Part shown: positions 1 through 25,807 of the stretch, one piece after another | Layout of the letters: every line of letters begins with the position of its first letter | Numbering within the stretch: position 1 is the stretch's first letter | IMG/VR virus record: IMGVR_UViG_3300042569_003749 | Span: 1 to 29,753 of that record | Length of the DNA: 29,753 nucleotides | Source of the DNA: a virus | Reading direction: 5' to 3' (one strand) | The notes under the pieces: model-generated | Seen by the model: the letters and a program-made list of their open reading frames with translations, nothing else | Databases searched by the model: none | Told to the model about the DNA's origin: nothing | Made by a program: the position numbers and the translations under genes

Positions 1-1101
1 ATGGCGTTCTTGGTCCGCAAAAAGCGGTCGCCGTTCTGGTATGTGCGCTACCGGGATATCGACACCCAGCGGTGGCGCGATGAGAATCTGAAGCTGCGCG
101 TCGATTGCCCGAAGGATTCGGCCAAGGCCGTGAAGGAGGCGGCGCGCCGGACCTCTCAGGAGGCCATCGTCAGACCGAACAGGGGAGGGGATTTCGTCGA
201 GTGGGTTCCCACCTACCTGAGCGACCATTACAAGAACCAGCGCACTCTCCTGCGATCCCGATACTTCTGGAGCACCGTCCATGTCTTCCTGCACGAGCAG
301 GGGATCCGCATGCCGAGCGAGGTCACCTACAAGCATGCCCAAGCCTACCTCGACTGGAGGAAGGGGGCCGGAGGGGAGCATGCCAGCCACAACACGGCCC
401 GTGCCGAGTTGAAGTTCCTCAGCTTCCTCATGAGTGAGGCGATCAGGCGAGGGCTGGCCGAGACGAACGGCCTCGCCCTGGCACGAGTCCCGATGACCCC
501 CCCGAAGGAGAAGCGCGAGATCACCACAGCCGAGATCACCGCCGTGAGGCAGGCCCTGCGCGACCAACCCGGATGGATGGCCACCGCCTTCGAGCTTCAG
601 CTTCACCTCGGCTGCCGCTTCTCCGAGACCCGCATCCCCATGGATCGGATCGACCTGAAGAGCAAGACCATCCAGATCCGCGATGCGAAGCGGCAGGAGG
701 GAGATGCGAGGAAGTGGTTCAGCGCGCCGATCAATGACCAGCTTGCCAAGTTCCTCAAGGGCATCACCCCCCATGACGGCCACACCCTGCCCGAGATCGA
801 GCGGACGATGAACCGAGACTTCAACCGGGTGCTGGGCCGTGCGGCTAATGGATTGACGAGTCATTGTCTGCGGGTCTCCTTTATTTCACGGCTCCATCGA
901 GCCGGGCTCTCCGAGAGCGAAGCGATGCGACTGGTGAATCACTCGACGAGGATGGTCCACCGGCTCTACTCGAAGCTGAACGTCGAGGACGCACGGCTCG
1001 CGATGAAGCGGGTGCCGCTGCCCCCGCCTCCGCCGCCAAAAAAGCGCGCACCCAGCGCAGGGTCGTCTTCTTCCCGAAAAAAGGGCAGCCACGCCGCTTG
1101 A
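1..1101 (+). CDS. int: Tyrosine recombinase (phage integrase)
   Basis: Site-specific recombinase of the phage integrase family, expected to integrate and excise the phage DNA. It has 366 residues. An N-terminal basic stretch (WYVRYRD, residues 13-19) and a SAM-like core-binding region (about 65-155) precede the catalytic domain. The catalytic set is visible with standard spacing: Arg206 in GCRFSE, His288-x-x-Arg291, His314 (NHS) and nucleophile Tyr323 in RLYSKL (23 and 9 residues apart). The last 25 residues are a Pro run followed by a Ser/Lys-rich tail, probably a dispensable extension. The ATG is the first base of the window, so an upstream start cannot be excluded, but the N-terminus looks complete. 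Its 3' end overlaps a convergent minus-strand gene by 221 nt. The attachment site is not identifiable here. Confidence 0.95.
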   Translation: MAFLVRKKRSPFWYVRYRDIDTQRWRDENLKLRVDCPKDSAKAVKEAARRTSQEAIVRPNRGGDFVEWVPTYLSDHYKNQRTLLRSRYFWSTVHVFLHEQGIRMPSEVTYKHAQAYLDWRKGAGGEHASHNTARAELKFLSFLMSEAIRRGLAETNGLALARVPMTPPKEKREITTAEITAVRQALRDQPGWMATAFELQLHLGCRFSETRIPMDRIDLKSKTIQIRDAKRQEGDARKWFSAPINDQLAKFLKGITPHDGHTLPEIERTMNRDFNRVLGRAANGLTSHCLRVSFISRLHRAGLSESEAMRLVNHSTRMVHRLYSKLNVEDARLAMKRVPLPPPPPPKKRAPSAGSSSSRKKGSHAA

Positions 1102-1189
1102 GCGAGGAGAGTTCCGTCTGGCTCATCCCGACAAGCGGGGCGAGGGCCTTGGGAAACTCCAGCCGGTCGAGGTCGATCATCGTGTTCAT
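881..1189 (-). CDS. Winged-helix DNA-binding protein, possible excisionase
   Basis: A 102-residue ORF. Residues 10-52 look like the small winged helix of excisionases and Nu1-type proteins: a helix-turn-helix around LAPLVGMSQTELSSLKRRG, a wing PFFGKKT, then a closing helix WVRAFLA. Residues 55-102 are low-complexity Ala/Ser/Arg and probably disordered. The gene starts 18 nt after the RHH gene upstream on the same strand, so the two form a small operon running towards the integrase. It overlaps the integrase 3' end antisense by 221 nt (881-1101). The overlap begins opposite the low-complexity integrase tail and runs into its catalytic region. The domain call is by eye. The position beside int suggests a recombination directionality factor, which is inference. 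It could also be a minor regulator. Confidence 0.5.
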   Translation of the reverse strand: MNTMIDLDRLEFPKALAPLVGMSQTELSSLKRRGCPFFGKKTTLRWVRAFLAAEAGAAAPASSRAVRPRRSASSRAGGPSSSSDSPVASLRSRRARLDGAVK

Positions 1190-1207: not shown

Positions 1208-1438
1208 TTAGGAGACGGCTTGATCGGCGGGGTCGAGGTCTTCCAATCCTTCGTGGATCATGGCGTGGGCTTTTTCCACGATTGGAAGACCGGCTGTGAT
1301 GGCCTGACGGAGCAGTGCCGATTCGGAGATGCCGGTGAGCTTTTTTAGGGCCTCCGAGCGGGACGTGATTTCTTCGGGGAGCTTGATATTCACTGAGGTC
1401 ATACGTGTTTTGCTTATGGAGTTGTAGTCATTTTGCAT
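1208..1438 (-). CDS. Ribbon-helix-helix (CopG/Arc-like) regulator, leftward
   Basis: Small DNA-binding protein of the RHH fold. The strand TSVNIKLPEEI is followed by two helices (SRSEALKKLTG and SESALLRQAITAGL), which is the CopG/Arc pattern. The longest form has 76 residues from an ATG at 1438. The Met at 1402 (MTSVNIKLPEE) gives a more typical 64-residue RHH protein and may be the real start, since neither has a convincing Shine-Dalgarno. It is divergent from another RHH gene starting at 1495, and inverted repeats lie in the shared control region. It probably represses its own promoter or the divergent one (inference). The winged-helix gene follows it on the same strand. Confidence 0.75.
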   Translation of the reverse strand: MQNDYNSISKTRMTSVNIKLPEEITSRSEALKKLTGISESALLRQAITAGLPIVEKAHAMIHEGLEDLDPADQAVS

Positions 1439-1504
1439 ACCAGATGCAATAAAAAAGATGAGAAAAAATCATTTTGTGTTTAAGGTGTTGTCAAATGACT
1501 ACAA
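1422..1504. promoter_or_regulatory. Divergent control region with nested inverted repeats
   Basis: The segment between two divergent RHH genes is A/T-rich compared with the window. A perfect 12-bp inverted repeat has arms TTGTAGTCATTT (1422-1433) and AAATGACTACAA (1493-1504); each arm overlaps the start region of one gene. Inside lies a second inverted repeat TTGCAT-N5-ATGCAA (1433-1438 and 1444-1449). RHH repressors bind short symmetric boxes as dimers of dimers, so these are candidate operators for autoregulation. A TTGACA on the minus strand (1494-1489) could be a -35 element for the leftward gene, but no good -10 follows at 16-18 nt. Confidence 0.55.
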
Positions 1505-1734
1505 AAAGACCCAGCCCGACCACTGTTCGATTGCCAGAGATTGTCCTTGCAAGGGTGGACCAGATCGTGACGCGCACAGGAAAAAGCCAACATGCCGTTT
1601 TGCTCGACATTGTGGACGCGGGGCTGCGAGAGATCGAAGAGGGCCGTTACAACCCGTATGCAGTACCCTACCCTCTCACCGAGGTCAGATCCCTCCGGGC
1701 GGCTGAGACACCGAAAAAATCACGAACCCAGTGA
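1495..1734 (+). CDS. Ribbon-helix-helix regulator, rightward
   Basis: A 79-residue RHH protein. The basic N-terminus (MTTKRPSP) leads into the strand TTVRLPEIVLARV and then helices VDQIVTRTGKSQHAVLLDIVDAG, the usual Arc/CopG layout; the tail (about 55-79) is polar. The ATG at 1495 is preferred over the in-frame one at 1474 because AAGGTG lies 7 nt upstream and the extra residues (MCLRCCQ) do not fit the fold. It is divergent from the RHH gene at 1208-1438, and the two start regions share an inverted 12-bp sequence, suggesting mutual or autoregulation. A role in the lysogeny decision is inference. Confidence 0.75.
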   Translation: MTTKRPSPTTVRLPEIVLARVDQIVTRTGKSQHAVLLDIVDAGLREIEEGRYNPYAVPYPLTEVRSLRAAETPKKSRTQ

Positions 1735-1781
1735 TTTTATCCTTTCCCGACGGGCTACCTTTGTAGAACAAATGCACTCTT

Positions 1782-2048
1782 ATGAATAGCGTATTCTTTC
1801 TAGCCGATGCCGGTGGGGCCTTTGCGGCTCTAGGGGTCTTTGGGATCCTGGCCGCCGTGGTGGTGGGGTTGCTCTATGCCCTCTTCCCCCTGATCGTCAT
1901 GTGGCAGCTCGGCGGGGTGAAGCAGCGGATCGACCGGCAGCGCACTGAGGAACTGAAGGCTCTCAAGGGTGCCACCGAGGAACTTCAGCGTCAGAACGCC
2001 CTCACCCGCCAGCTTCTCAGGGCCTACGGGCACGAGCCGGAAGCGTAA
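1782..2048 (+). CDS. Small membrane protein with coiled-coil tail
   Basis: Family not recognised; 88 residues. A long hydrophobic segment at about residues 13-42 (rich in Ala, Val, Leu) should span the membrane, and the remainder is a charged, heptad-like helix (about 46-80) probably in the cytoplasm. No Shine-Dalgarno is obvious. It lies 47 nt after the rightward RHH gene on the same strand and is followed immediately by an 18-bp palindrome. A superinfection-exclusion or other lysogenic function is conceivable but not shown. Confidence 0.6.
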   Translation: MNSVFFLADAGGAFAALGVFGILAAVVVGLLYALFPLIVMWQLGGVKQRIDRQRTEELKALKGATEELQRQNALTRQLLRAYGHEPEA

Positions 2049-5282: not shown

Positions 5283-7112
5283 TTAGGCGAGGGTCAGGGA
5301 GGCGGAGCGCACGGTTCCATCGGTGCCGCGCATCTTGAAGGTGATGGAAGTGTCGTTGGTCTGTTCTATGACGAGATCCCCGTTGCTGGCTGGGGTAACG
5401 GTTGTAGCGATGCCGCTTCGCTGAATCACGTTGCGAACTCGCAGATCACGGAAGGTTCCAGCCGTGCCGTTGTTGATTTCAACGACTCCTGCGGCATTGC
5501 GGGAGAGTGCCGTGTCCGGGGCAACCTGAGTATTAGTTCCCGGAACCCACCCAAGCGGCTTCGTTGAAACAAGCTGACAGCCATAGTTAGTGTCGAATGC
5601 TCCGCTTCCAGAAACTCCACAGGAATTGTTTGCTTGAAAACGGCCACTATTAAACGAGCCCATGAGAAATGTTGACCAGAAGTTAATAATTCCACTAGCG
5701 GCGTTGATCTGCGTCGTCCTAGCCGCCCCCGTGCCGCCTGCTTCGGTGCCGATTTCAAGGACGTTGCTGTTCCAGCGCATGAAGCCACGCTCGAAATTTG
5801 TCAGGCCAGCGTCCGTGTAGTTATACAGGCGGAATGTCTGTGGCACTGGCGTTCCAGCCGTGCCGCCATTTCGAAGGGCAAGCGTGTTCGCTGCGTCACG
5901 GGCGAGGAAGAGATCACGAGTTCCTTTTGCGTAACCGTTTGTCCAAGTGTATGCGCCTCCTGCTGGCAAACGGACAAAGGACACCGAACCAGAAGAACCC
6001 TCAATAGCGAATCGCTCAAAGTTCGGAACGCCAAGCGATAATCCGTAGGTCGGGCTAGTGTCCCACCTAGTAAAGATCGCTCCGTTCTTATCGACATTGA
6101 ATCGGCTAGTTCCTGCGGTCTGGACGTCGAATAGCAAACTCGACGCATTGCTTGCGGTGTCGGTGATGTTGAGCAGGATGCCCCTTGCTGCACCCGTCGT
6201 GTTCCATGTGCCGCTCAGGTTCAGAAGCGGAGTCGTGTTTGCTCCCGTAACGCTGTAGGAAGCAGTCAGGGCAGACGTATTCGCCGCTGCCGTGATGGTC
6301 TGGCCGACCGAGAAGAAGTTATTGATGTTGTCGAGCGAGACGTTGGATGAGAGTCGCGCGTCATCAAGAGTGCCGCTGGTCAGTAGCGATGCGTCCGTGG
6401 AGGCTGATGGGATTGTCGGCTTGTTGAGGATCTGGGCGAGGCCGCTTGTCGCGTTCCAGTCCGAGTTGACCTGGGCGGCTGGGATTGTGGGCTTTCCAGA
6501 AAGATCAGCGTATGAACCACTGGTGGCCACGCTGGCAAGACCCGTGACATCTGCCGAGGAAAGCGTGACTGCTCCCGTCTTCCCTGCGACTGAAGAGACG
6601 CCAGTCACAAGCGCGGAGATTGCAGAGGAGACGCTTGAAGTCGTGGCGAATCCTTGTGCCGTGACCCATGCCTGGGTGGCGTAGCTGGAAAGCGTGGAAG
6701 CGAGAGCGGAGACGGCTCGGGCGGCGGTGAAGTAGAGGTTGGTTGCGCCTTCAGGAACGGCGTCGGTCGAGCCGGGTGAAGAAGTCATCTCGACGTAGGA
6801 AGATCCCGACCAGCGATATGTCTTGTTCGATCCCGTCGAGACGTAGATTTTCCCTGTCTCTCCCGTCGCTGGGAACGCCGCAATCGTGGCAAATTCCAGC
6901 ACGTCGTCCACATAGCTCGGAAGCTGGGAGGCGGGGACGGTGCCGCCGACCAGTGTCGCGTAGTCCCCCGAGGGCTGCTTCCCGTCAAGAGCGGTCTGGA
7001 GCCCTGAGACGTCGCCACGATCCCCTTTATCCCCCTTGAGACCCGGTGCGCCCGTGCGAAGAACGGTCTGAAGGTTCGGGCGGGGGATGATGGTGACTTG
7101 GAGGGTGCTCAT
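5283..7112 (-). CDS. Tail fibre protein with collagen-like segment
   Basis: A 609-residue fibre. Residues 21-35 are five Gly-X-Y triplets (GAP GLK GDK GDR GDV), a collagen-like trimerisation element common in phage fibres. Then come Ser/Thr/Ala-rich repetitive beta segments (DAVPEGATNLYFT, SYATQAWVTAQGFATT, SVAGKTGAVTLSSADVTGLA) of a type common in phage side fibres. The C-terminal half is unique and probably holds the receptor-binding region. No S74 intramolecular chaperone is seen. Segments near 5560-5700 are more A/T-rich, suggesting module exchange at the receptor-binding end. It starts 9 nt after the upstream stop. Confidence 0.85.
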   Translation of the reverse strand: MSTLQVTIIPRPNLQTVLRTGAPGLKGDKGDRGDVSGLQTALDGKQPSGDYATLVGGTVPASQLPSYVDDVLEFATIAAFPATGETGKIYVSTGSNKTYRWSGSSYVEMTSSPGSTDAVPEGATNLYFTAARAVSALASTLSSYATQAWVTAQGFATTSSVSSAISALVTGVSSVAGKTGAVTLSSADVTGLASVATSGSYADLSGKPTIPAAQVNSDWNATSGLAQILNKPTIPSASTDASLLTSGTLDDARLSSNVSLDNINNFFSVGQTITAAANTSALTASYSVTGANTTPLLNLSGTWNTTGAARGILLNITDTASNASSLLFDVQTAGTSRFNVDKNGAIFTRWDTSPTYGLSLGVPNFERFAIEGSSGSVSFVRLPAGGAYTWTNGYAKGTRDLFLARDAANTLALRNGGTAGTPVPQTFRLYNYTDAGLTNFERGFMRWNSNVLEIGTEAGGTGAARTTQINAASGIINFWSTFLMGSFNSGRFQANNSCGVSGSGAFDTNYGCQLVSTKPLGWVPGTNTQVAPDTALSRNAAGVVEINNGTAGTFRDLRVRNVIQRSGIATTVTPASNGDLVIEQTNDTSITFKMRGTDGTVRSASLTLA

Positions 7113-7739: not shown

Positions 7740-8785
7740 ACCGAGACGAAGGGCTGCGGCCTCTGGCGTAGATGACCCCGGCACTCCCCATCCTGCTCAT
7801 GGTAGGCGCGGAAGTGGGTGATCTCGGTCTTTCCGTCCCGTTCCTGCCGCTTAATGTGATCGCAGACGAGGTGCGGGACACAGGCGATGCGGAGGGCGGC
7901 TGGATGCCAGCGGGACCAGCAGAGGAAAAGATCCTGAGTCCCCCTGCCCTCATAGCCCGTGAAGTCGGAGTGTGCGAGCGCGGCCTTGGATAACAGGGTG
8001 CAACCTAACCCGCACCAATCAGAAGGGACGACTGCCCCGATGCCGATGCCAGGATAAGCGAAGTCCATCCATCCTCTGCGGCGATAGCCCTTGGCATTCA
8101 ACTCAAAGACGTTTCCTGTAGGCGGCGACTTCTTGATCCATTCGCGCAATCTGACCATGCGCTTGCCTTCCTTCTCGCCCGTCTTCTGAGCCGCTTCCGC
8201 TTCCCTTGCATTGGTTGGTGGCTTGATTGCCTTCAGTCGTTCCTCGCATTTCTCAAGCAGGAGCTTAAGGCGGGGCTTGAGATTCCTCTCCTCTGGAAGG
8301 AAATCCTCGGCGATCTGATGCTGGGGAGAGCCGAACCCTCCAAGGAACAACCCATTCGGGTAGGTAGCAGCGGCGATGTCGTAGTAGGGACGGCCATCGG
8401 CTTGCGGCATGGCAAGAGTCCATTCCAGAACACGGAGGCCGTGCGCCGGAACGATGGTATCACTCTCAACGACCCAGCATTGGTCAGCGCGGATCTTGCG
8501 AGCAAAGGCGAATCCTGCCCCTTGCAAGGCGGCAATGCGGAGTTGCGCCGCTTCCTTGTAGTCCTTGGCATCATCCGCAAAGGGATGCTTCAGCACGGAA
8601 ACCTTCCACCCCTCGGGTAGCTCTCTCTTGGCAATCTCTGCGGCGGCTTCCCCTTCCTTGCTCTCATCCGTCGAAAATATGAAATGAGCCTCGTCGTGGT
8701 GAGCGGCGGCGGCGGCTATAGCACGAACGCATTGAGGCCATGCGTGAAGGTAGCCCTTGGTGGCGGCGGTGCAGATGGCTATCAT
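7736..8785 (-). CDS. Phage glycosyltransferase-like protein (GT-A type)
   Basis: A 349-residue enzyme-like protein. Residues 1-25 (MIAICTAATKGYLHAWPQCVRAI) and the DEAHFIFSTDES segment resemble the nucleotide-sugar binding start of GT-A glycosyltransferases. Residues about 103-113 (CWVVESDTIVP) carry a DxD-like acidic site, and GYEGRGTQDLFLCWSRW (about 275-291) resembles the late catalytic acidic motif (G-x-D). CDHIK and HFRAYHEQ near the end supply possible metal-binding His. The predicted role is glycosyl transfer to host surface polymer or virion protein. It sits between two host-recognition genes in the tail operon. Donor and acceptor are not deducible. The call is from motif pattern. Confidence 0.7.
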   Translation of the reverse strand: MIAICTAATKGYLHAWPQCVRAIAAAAAHHDEAHFIFSTDESKEGEAAAEIAKRELPEGWKVSVLKHPFADDAKDYKEAAQLRIAALQGAGFAFARKIRADQCWVVESDTIVPAHGLRVLEWTLAMPQADGRPYYDIAAATYPNGLFLGGFGSPQHQIAEDFLPEERNLKPRLKLLLEKCEERLKAIKPPTNAREAEAAQKTGEKEGKRMVRLREWIKKSPPTGNVFELNAKGYRRRGWMDFAYPGIGIGAVVPSDWCGLGCTLLSKAALAHSDFTGYEGRGTQDLFLCWSRWHPAALRIACVPHLVCDHIKRQERDGKTEITHFRAYHEQDGECRGHLRQRPQPFVSV

Positions 8786-19770: not shown

Positions 19771-19800
19771 CCCCTTCTTCTACACGTGTAGAAGAAGGGG
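19771..19800 (-). terminator. 30-bp perfect palindrome acting as terminator
   Basis: Two 15-nt arms (outer CCCCTTCTTC, inner TACAC) are perfectly complementary. On the minus strand it is followed at once by TTTTTT, giving an intrinsic terminator just beyond the tRNA. Its centre is the same CTTCTACACGTGTAGAAG found at 2049-2066, so it could also bind the same regulator. Confidence 0.8.
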
Positions 19801-19807
19801 CGGTAAC

Positions 19808-19882
19808 TGGTGGCAGGGGTGGGAATCGAACCCACTATCTCCTCCTTATGAGGGAGGCGACTTACCGGTTGTCTTCCCTGGC
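19808..19882 (-). tRNA. tRNA with anticodon CAU (Met, or Ile2 if modified)
   Basis: Full cloverleaf on the minus strand: acceptor GCCAGGG (19882-19876) with CCCTGCC (19818-19812), discriminator A and encoded CCA. D-arm GAC/GTC, anticodon stem CCTCC/GGAGG around CTCATAA (anticodon CAT), short variable loop, T-arm GTGGG-TTCGATT-CCCAC. Oddities are a C-C mismatch at acceptor pair 2-71 and A instead of the usual U8. Its 5' base directly follows the TAA of the protease gene, and a terminator lies 7 nt beyond its 3' end, so it is probably processed from the packaging/head transcript. CAU cannot separate elongator Met from lysidine-type Ile2 by eye; the anticodon stem lacks the initiator GGG pairs. 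Confidence 0.85.
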
Positions 19883-25789: not shown

Positions 25790-25807
25790 CTCTACACGTG
25801 GAGAAGG
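25790..25807. repeat. Diverged copy of the TACACGTG palindrome
   Basis: CTCTACACGTGGAGAAG keeps the CTACACGTG core and matches the 18-bp palindrome of 2049-2066 at 15 of 18 positions. It lies between the iterons and the end of the helicase gene. Confidence 0.45.

Follow-up and report, generated by a model that had tools for sequence, protein, structure and literature searches.

A divergent pair of ribbon-helix-helix genes, apparently exchanged as a unit, beside the integrase gene of a virus

We describe two small, divergent ribbon-helix-helix (RHH) genes and the DNA between them in a virus record of 29,753 bp, the whole of which was analysed and is called the window throughout. The pair lies beside genes for a tyrosine integrase and a winged-HTH (wHTH) protein, and the features of the locus, in window coordinates, are as follows:

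1–1101, plus strand: tyrosine integrase gene (Pfam Phage_integrase, E 2.2e-8; PHROG 1 integrase, E 2.8e-36)
881–1189, minus strand: gene for a winged-HTH protein, a candidate excisionase, downstream of RHH1 and overlapping the 3' end of the integrase gene
1208–1402, minus strand: RHH1, 64 aa from the start common to relatives (76 aa from an ATG at 1438); Pfam RHH_1, 19.9 bits
1422–1433, no strand: left arm of a 12-bp inverted repeat, candidate operator on the RHH1 side
1433–1449, no strand: repeat TTGCAT-5-ATGCAA, at chance level
1493–1504, no strand: right arm of the 12-bp inverted repeat, candidate operator on the RHH2 side, holding the RHH2 start codon
1495–1734, plus strand: RHH2, 79 aa; Pfam RHH_1, 17.1 bits; AF2 model made
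1669–1731, plus strand: C-terminal tail of RHH2, YPLTEVRSLRAAETPKKSRTQ, kept in most relatives while the rest of the gene is exchanged
1760–1773, plus strand: TTTGTAGAACAAAT, before the next gene and independent of the cassette
1782–2048, plus strand: small gene downstream of RHH2 for a putative membrane protein (hydrophobic stretch by eye)

The initial annotation read both divergent genes as RHH genes, and this is borne out by profile and fold, though both proteins score below the Pfam RHH_1 cut-off of 20.5 bits. A class I RHH profile that includes both window proteins matches CopG-family chains (E 1.5e-4), and the AF2 model of RHH2 (pLDDT 76.1, two helices) has RHH domains as its nearest structures, namely those of PutA (Z 4.8, rmsd 1.8, 44 aligned) and NikR (Z 4.6, rmsd 2.6, 47 aligned), followed by CopG (Z 4.4, rmsd 2.8, 45 aligned) and Arc (Z 4.2, rmsd 2.5, 43 aligned). 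The window pair belongs to the ribbon-helix-helix superfamily on these grounds. RHH1 is 62–69% identical to its counterparts in three relatives (L008, L009 and L050; related loci carry L numbers), and the RHH classes I to III used here are a grouping by eye. None of nine RHH proteins from relatives reaches the Pfam cut-off, seven giving weak RHH-type matches and two (RHH2 of L010 and of L015) none, so that several are RHH by eye and alignment. For the class II RHH1 of L010, the ORF56 model scored 25.7 bits, short of its cut-off of 50, and class III (L048, L049) was called RHH by eye, with nothing relevant in NCBIfam for the L048 pair. INPHARED gave no match to RHH1, RHH2 or the RHH1 of L016. 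The RHH2 tail is conserved at the protein level in the distant L016, L017 and L050, and not in L014 or L015. A hairpin (AAAATCAC-7-GTGATTTT, window 1716–1738) spans the RHH2 stop codon and is a possible weak terminator; it was not called by the promoter-region scan and is imperfect in some relatives.

Between the two genes, the arms TTGTAGTCATTT (1422–1433) and AAATGACTACAA (1493–1504) are complementary at 12 of 12 positions across a 59-bp spacer, which confirms an earlier description of a perfect 12-bp inverted repeat with one arm in each gene's start region. A perfect arm of at least 12 appeared in 29 of 20,000 dinucleotide shuffles of 1388–1509, and the repeat is a real one that chance would seldom produce in its own region. 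The whole window holds four perfect repeats of at least 12 with a spacer of up to 100 (mean 0.23 in 30 shuffles), so the 12-bp repeat alone is not unique, and it is its placement at two gene starts that stands out. RHH2 starts inside the right arm (ATG at 1495). From the RHH1 start common to relatives (1402), the left arm is about 20 bp upstream; with the further upstream ATG at 1438 as the start, this arm would fall within the RHH1 frame. With up to two mismatches allowed, the arm has one more site in the window, at 8556 (two mismatches). The second inverted repeat that had been reported as nested inside the first, TTGCAT-5-ATGCAA, is present at 1433–1449, but it shares one base with the left arm and was equalled in 2,007 of 5,000 shuffles, which is chance level. 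No sigma-70-like promoter was called in 1150–1900 by the promoter scan. Scans for a second copy of the window's own cassette returned none, a weak negative (one scan also missed L008 and L009, and another had no positive control).

Several other features of the window were recorded. A second perfect 12-bp inverted repeat (1237–1248 and 1280–1291) lies within the RHH1 coding region. The palindrome TTCTACACGTGTAGAA occurs at 2050–2065, 19778–19793 and 25790–25805, twice exactly and once with two mismatches; the TTCTACACGTGTAGAA copy at 19771–19800 is followed by a T run on the minus strand and is terminator-like, and a tRNA-Met gene lies at 19808–19882 on the minus strand.

The domain-like part of the wHTH protein is its N-terminal ~55 aa, the remainder being antisense to the 3' end of the integrase gene. 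Searches of Pfam, PHROG and NCBIfam gave no match for it, only chance-level rows. The AF2 model of the first 60 residues is predicted as a winged HTH (pLDDT 86.7), for which Foldseek returned no match at E <= 0.001. Fold comparison, in which all scores were middling, ranked packaging proteins (Z 6.5, rmsd 1.2, 47 aligned; Z 5.8; Z 5.3) and BldC (Z 5.0) above the excisionases, namely the KpR49 excisionase (Z 4.7, rmsd 5.0, 57 aligned), TorI (Z 4.3, rmsd 4.5, 59 aligned) and RdfS (Z 4.2, rmsd 4.5, 51 aligned). The place and size of the gene fit a small winged-HTH excisionase, or RDF, encoded next to its integrase. It was aligned beside the integrase in 10 and 11 sequences, and it stands there also in four chromosomal relatives (L033–L036, integrase 43–46% identical) and in L029, each with a tRNA-like attP core ~120 bp upstream of the integrase gene. 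Because it accompanies the integrase in chromosomal loci with such a core too, we infer that it is a candidate excisionase of the adjacent integrase. Integrase relatives at 33–36% identity (L037–L039) gave no wHTH match, and the integrase query returned one weak match only from INPHARED.

An attP-like region was also seen in L008–L014 and L016–L018 (for example L012 5834–5990), with the tRNA-like core CCTGTGGTGTAACGGTA ~120 bp upstream of the integrase gene. The core has one mismatch in L018, and in six loci (L008, L009, L010, L012, L013 and L016) it is flanked by two pairs of GTGRAAC repeats; by eye, the letter on the integrase side (A or G) seems to track the integrase N-terminus.

Integrase and wHTH scans yielded the distinct viral records L008–L018 and L048–L050, making 15 with the window; L051 and the terminase-scan loci L002–L007 stand outside the 15, and the latter had no match to integrase, wHTH or RHH queries in the stretches compared. 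The same layout, with the integrase gene facing oppositely oriented wHTH and RHH1 genes and RHH2 diverging from RHH1, is found in 14 of these 15 viral records (window, L008–L017 and L048–L050, some RHH calls being by eye) and is absent in L018. L010 and L011 share one cassette, and the DNA between the genes is 97–98% alike in L013/L014 and in L016/L017, so the number of distinct cassettes is about nine or ten. In L029, a divergent RHH-like pair, without family match, lies ~1.4 kb from the integrase gene, and no RHH pair was seen by eye in ~2.3 kb of the chromosomal relatives L052–L055 (ORFs of 45–140 aa, ATG or GTG starts). The genome collection contained a single relative, a Spartobacteria MAG (integrase 43% identical), a hint only that the host of the virus is perhaps among the Spartobacteria or Verrucomicrobiota.

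Identity along the locus was compared with the window as reference. Six relatives (L008, L009, L010, L012, L013 and L014) are 90–95% identical to it in the integrase core and 76–92% in the N-terminal part of the wHTH gene, against 39–63% in the RHH1 body, 41–47% in the intergenic DNA and 33–45% in the RHH2 body; in the RHH2 tail, identity is back up to 71–83% in the first five of these and stands at 43% in L014. L008 and L050 are 61% identical in integrase and 54% in the wHTH N-part, and their cassettes are 80% identical in RHH1, 81% in the intergenic DNA, 82% in the RHH2 body and 75% in the tail. Since these two cassettes are more alike than their backbones, the intergenic DNA travels with both genes, and the pair with the DNA between is a unit of exchange. 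As judged by these alignments, both RHH genes and their intergenic DNA are replaced together, and the integrase and wHTH genes are conserved.

Paired repeats were sought in 11 cassettes, with 400 shuffles each. Strong paired sites were present in four: the pairs of the window and L048 are inverted (16 of 18 in L048), and those of L012 and L013, two related cassettes, are direct (L012: 13 bp, 75 bp apart; L013: 11 bp, 74 bp apart). No significant paired repeat was found in the other seven (L008, L050, L009, L010, L015, L016 and L029). L049 retains the RHH2-side element of L048 and part of the RHH1-side element. L008 and L050 both retain GTAGTGTTTTGGCTTA at one side and GTGTCAAA at the other, a weak site footprint because the whole stretch is so similar (81%). 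Cassette motifs were searched for elsewhere in the window, L008–L010, L012–L014, L016 and L017, where patterns of at least 8 bases had no exact match outside the cassette save AGTGTCAAAA (L008 10084) and TGTAGTCA (window 7436 and 9310). Matches with two mismatches before the next gene in L012, L013, L016 and L017 are the site of a pattern, TTTGTANNACRAAT, found at the position of window 1760–1773 in eight of nine aligned loci and one base off in L016. The window's own version at this position, TTTGTAGAACAAAT, is similar to the site on the RHH1 side in L016 and L017.

The initial annotation recognised no CI or Cro and suggested that the two RHH proteins could form a lysogeny switch. The former observation agrees with the searches of 13 records, possibly incomplete, in which S24 was found in none and HTH_3 over its cut-off in none, with weaker HTH_3 matches in five; no classical CI-type repressor was found by these searches. 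By its coordinates, the weak match of L008 falls in the early stretch, on the minus strand and ~1.4 kb upstream of the integrase gene, and a gene in a like early stretch of L012 has sub-threshold HTH matches only. The pair might then be a master lysogeny and immunity switch replacing CI/Cro, with one RHH protein repressing the early lytic operon directly and hypervariability reflecting heteroimmunity, and the position of the cassette adjoining the integrase gene and its exchange in the manner of an immunity region agree with this. The early region, which with its promoter lies outside the window record and was compared in relatives, argues against direct action. L009 (class I) and L010 (class II) have cassettes only 37–42% identical, but no letter differs between them in twelve consecutive 150-nt stretches (L009 4051–5850, 1,800 bp) at the beginning of the early operon, and over locus 5751–5905 their identity is 99%; a 36-aa early gene, with a Shine-Dalgarno-like sequence by eye, starts at L009 5753. 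Different cassettes beside a letter-identical early start make a cassette-specific operator at the early promoter unlikely there. Near the early start, cassette motifs have only two-mismatch matches, at L010 5976 and L008 5833 (integrase arm repeats) and at L012 5553 (inside an early gene), besides one 6-base motif match in L009, and no switch operators were found at the early promoter in these relatives. The early leader carries a palindrome-like sequence of its own, GTGTGAWTCCTKCACAC, in L008–L014 (three mismatches in L016/L017), whatever the cassette. A direct lysogeny switch of the CI/Cro kind is not supported, the suggestion of direct action on early genes does not stand up to the L009/L010 comparison, and we consider a master switch improbable. 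The sequence GTGTGAATCCTTCACAC (L009 5782–5798), just upstream of the 36-aa gene and independent of the RHH cassette, is a perfect palindrome in L009–L011, with a near form in L008 and L012–L014.

Two further explanations concern the repeat itself. It could be the autoregulatory operator of a toxin-antitoxin locus with an RHH antitoxin, in keeping with a weak score of RHH1 under a RelB-like antitoxin model (22.2 bits; cut-off 50) and with the many antitoxins among the fold neighbours of the RHH2 model. Both divergent genes are RHH genes, however, the layout persists in relatives whose RHH proteins are unrelated, and five neighbouring products have no Pfam toxin family match; we rejected the toxin-antitoxin locus as very improbable. 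The exact 12-bp repeat could instead be a coincidence, the real operators being shorter or different, as in the relatives that have no strong repeat. The seven cassettes of 11 without a significant paired repeat would fit this, as would the three other perfect repeats of at least 12 bp in the window and the overlap of the right arm with coding bases. Set against these are the shuffles of the region (29 of 20,000) and the like two-site placement in L012/L013 and L048, and coincidence appears unlikely to us.

The reading toward which we lean is that the RHH pair and the ~90 bp between its start codons form a self-contained regulatory cassette, with local self- and cross-repression and with the wHTH (excisionase) and RHH2 transcripts as outputs. 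RHH dimers would bind paired sites, one in each gene's start region, which in the window would be the two 12-bp arms, and once bound would shut both putative divergent promoters, so that each protein would repress its own gene and the other. The RHH1 transcript would lead into the wHTH gene, which likely encodes the excisionase of the adjacent integrase, and the RHH2 transcript would lead toward the small membrane-protein gene. In a prophage, RHH2 would be dominant and the RHH1-excisionase transcript silent, and RHH1 would favour the other state. The putative membrane-protein gene (1782–2048) has tblastn matches in L008, L009, L012, L013, L014, L016 and L050, and none in L010, L011, L015 and L017; after RHH2 in L010 and L017, another small gene, by eye with a zinc-ribbon and a hydrophobic stretch, seems to take its place. 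Control by the pair of itself and of its neighbours, through the wHTH and RHH2 transcripts, is predicted to be more likely than direct control of early genes, and such local control could still affect lysogeny via excision. We put forward only as a doubtful generalisation that in CI-free temperate phages an exchangeable RHH pair with its own operators gates excision, not the early promoter, and sets lysogeny and specificity between phages, a swap of RHH bodies with a kept RHH2 tail giving new specificity and the same output.

Like CI/Cro switches, the locus encodes a divergent pair of DNA-binding proteins separated by operator-like DNA; unlike those switches, it has RHH instead of HTH proteins and no S24 peptidase was found, and the early region of relatives does not change in step with the cassette. 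It shares with CopG-family and ORF56-type RHH repressors small RHH proteins, with a class I profile that matches CopG-family chains, and differs from them in its arrangement, a divergent pair of RHH genes next to the integrase gene of a phage. To our knowledge, RHH repressors in temperate phages are mainly secondary players, as with Mnt and Arc of P22, which are both RHH proteins with divergent overlapping promoters. Among the open-licence papers listed by literature searches, none was seen to describe a divergent pair of RHH genes serving as the main lysogeny switch. In P22, the small repressors Mnt and Arc of the immunity I region are described as controlling a local gene, ant (PMC2629481, PMC8022706), and the region is described as in high flux between related phages, with "ten types in sixteen genomes" (PMC2629481). 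The window likewise has two small divergent RHH genes, paired candidate sites and a region exchanged between phages. It differs in that neither an antirepressor nor an antisense RNA was recognised here (the wHTH, 1782, 2211, 2651 and 2908 products have no Pfam or PHROGs match to an antirepressor family), in that the cassette lies beside integrase and wHTH genes and not in a late operon, and in that P22 has a separate main repressor and none was found here. Membership of the P22 type is not claimed because no ant was recognised; in outline, the cassette resembles P22 immI, which appears to be its closest precedent. What the present loci add to that precedent is a divergent RHH pair that recurs as a rapidly exchanged unit beside the integrase gene, in phages without a recognised CI. 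Each natural cassette comes with proteins and intergenic DNA of its own; together they offer a ready set for studying how repressor specificity and operators change jointly, and they bear on the maintenance of lysogeny in little-studied phages, which perhaps infect Verrucomicrobiota.
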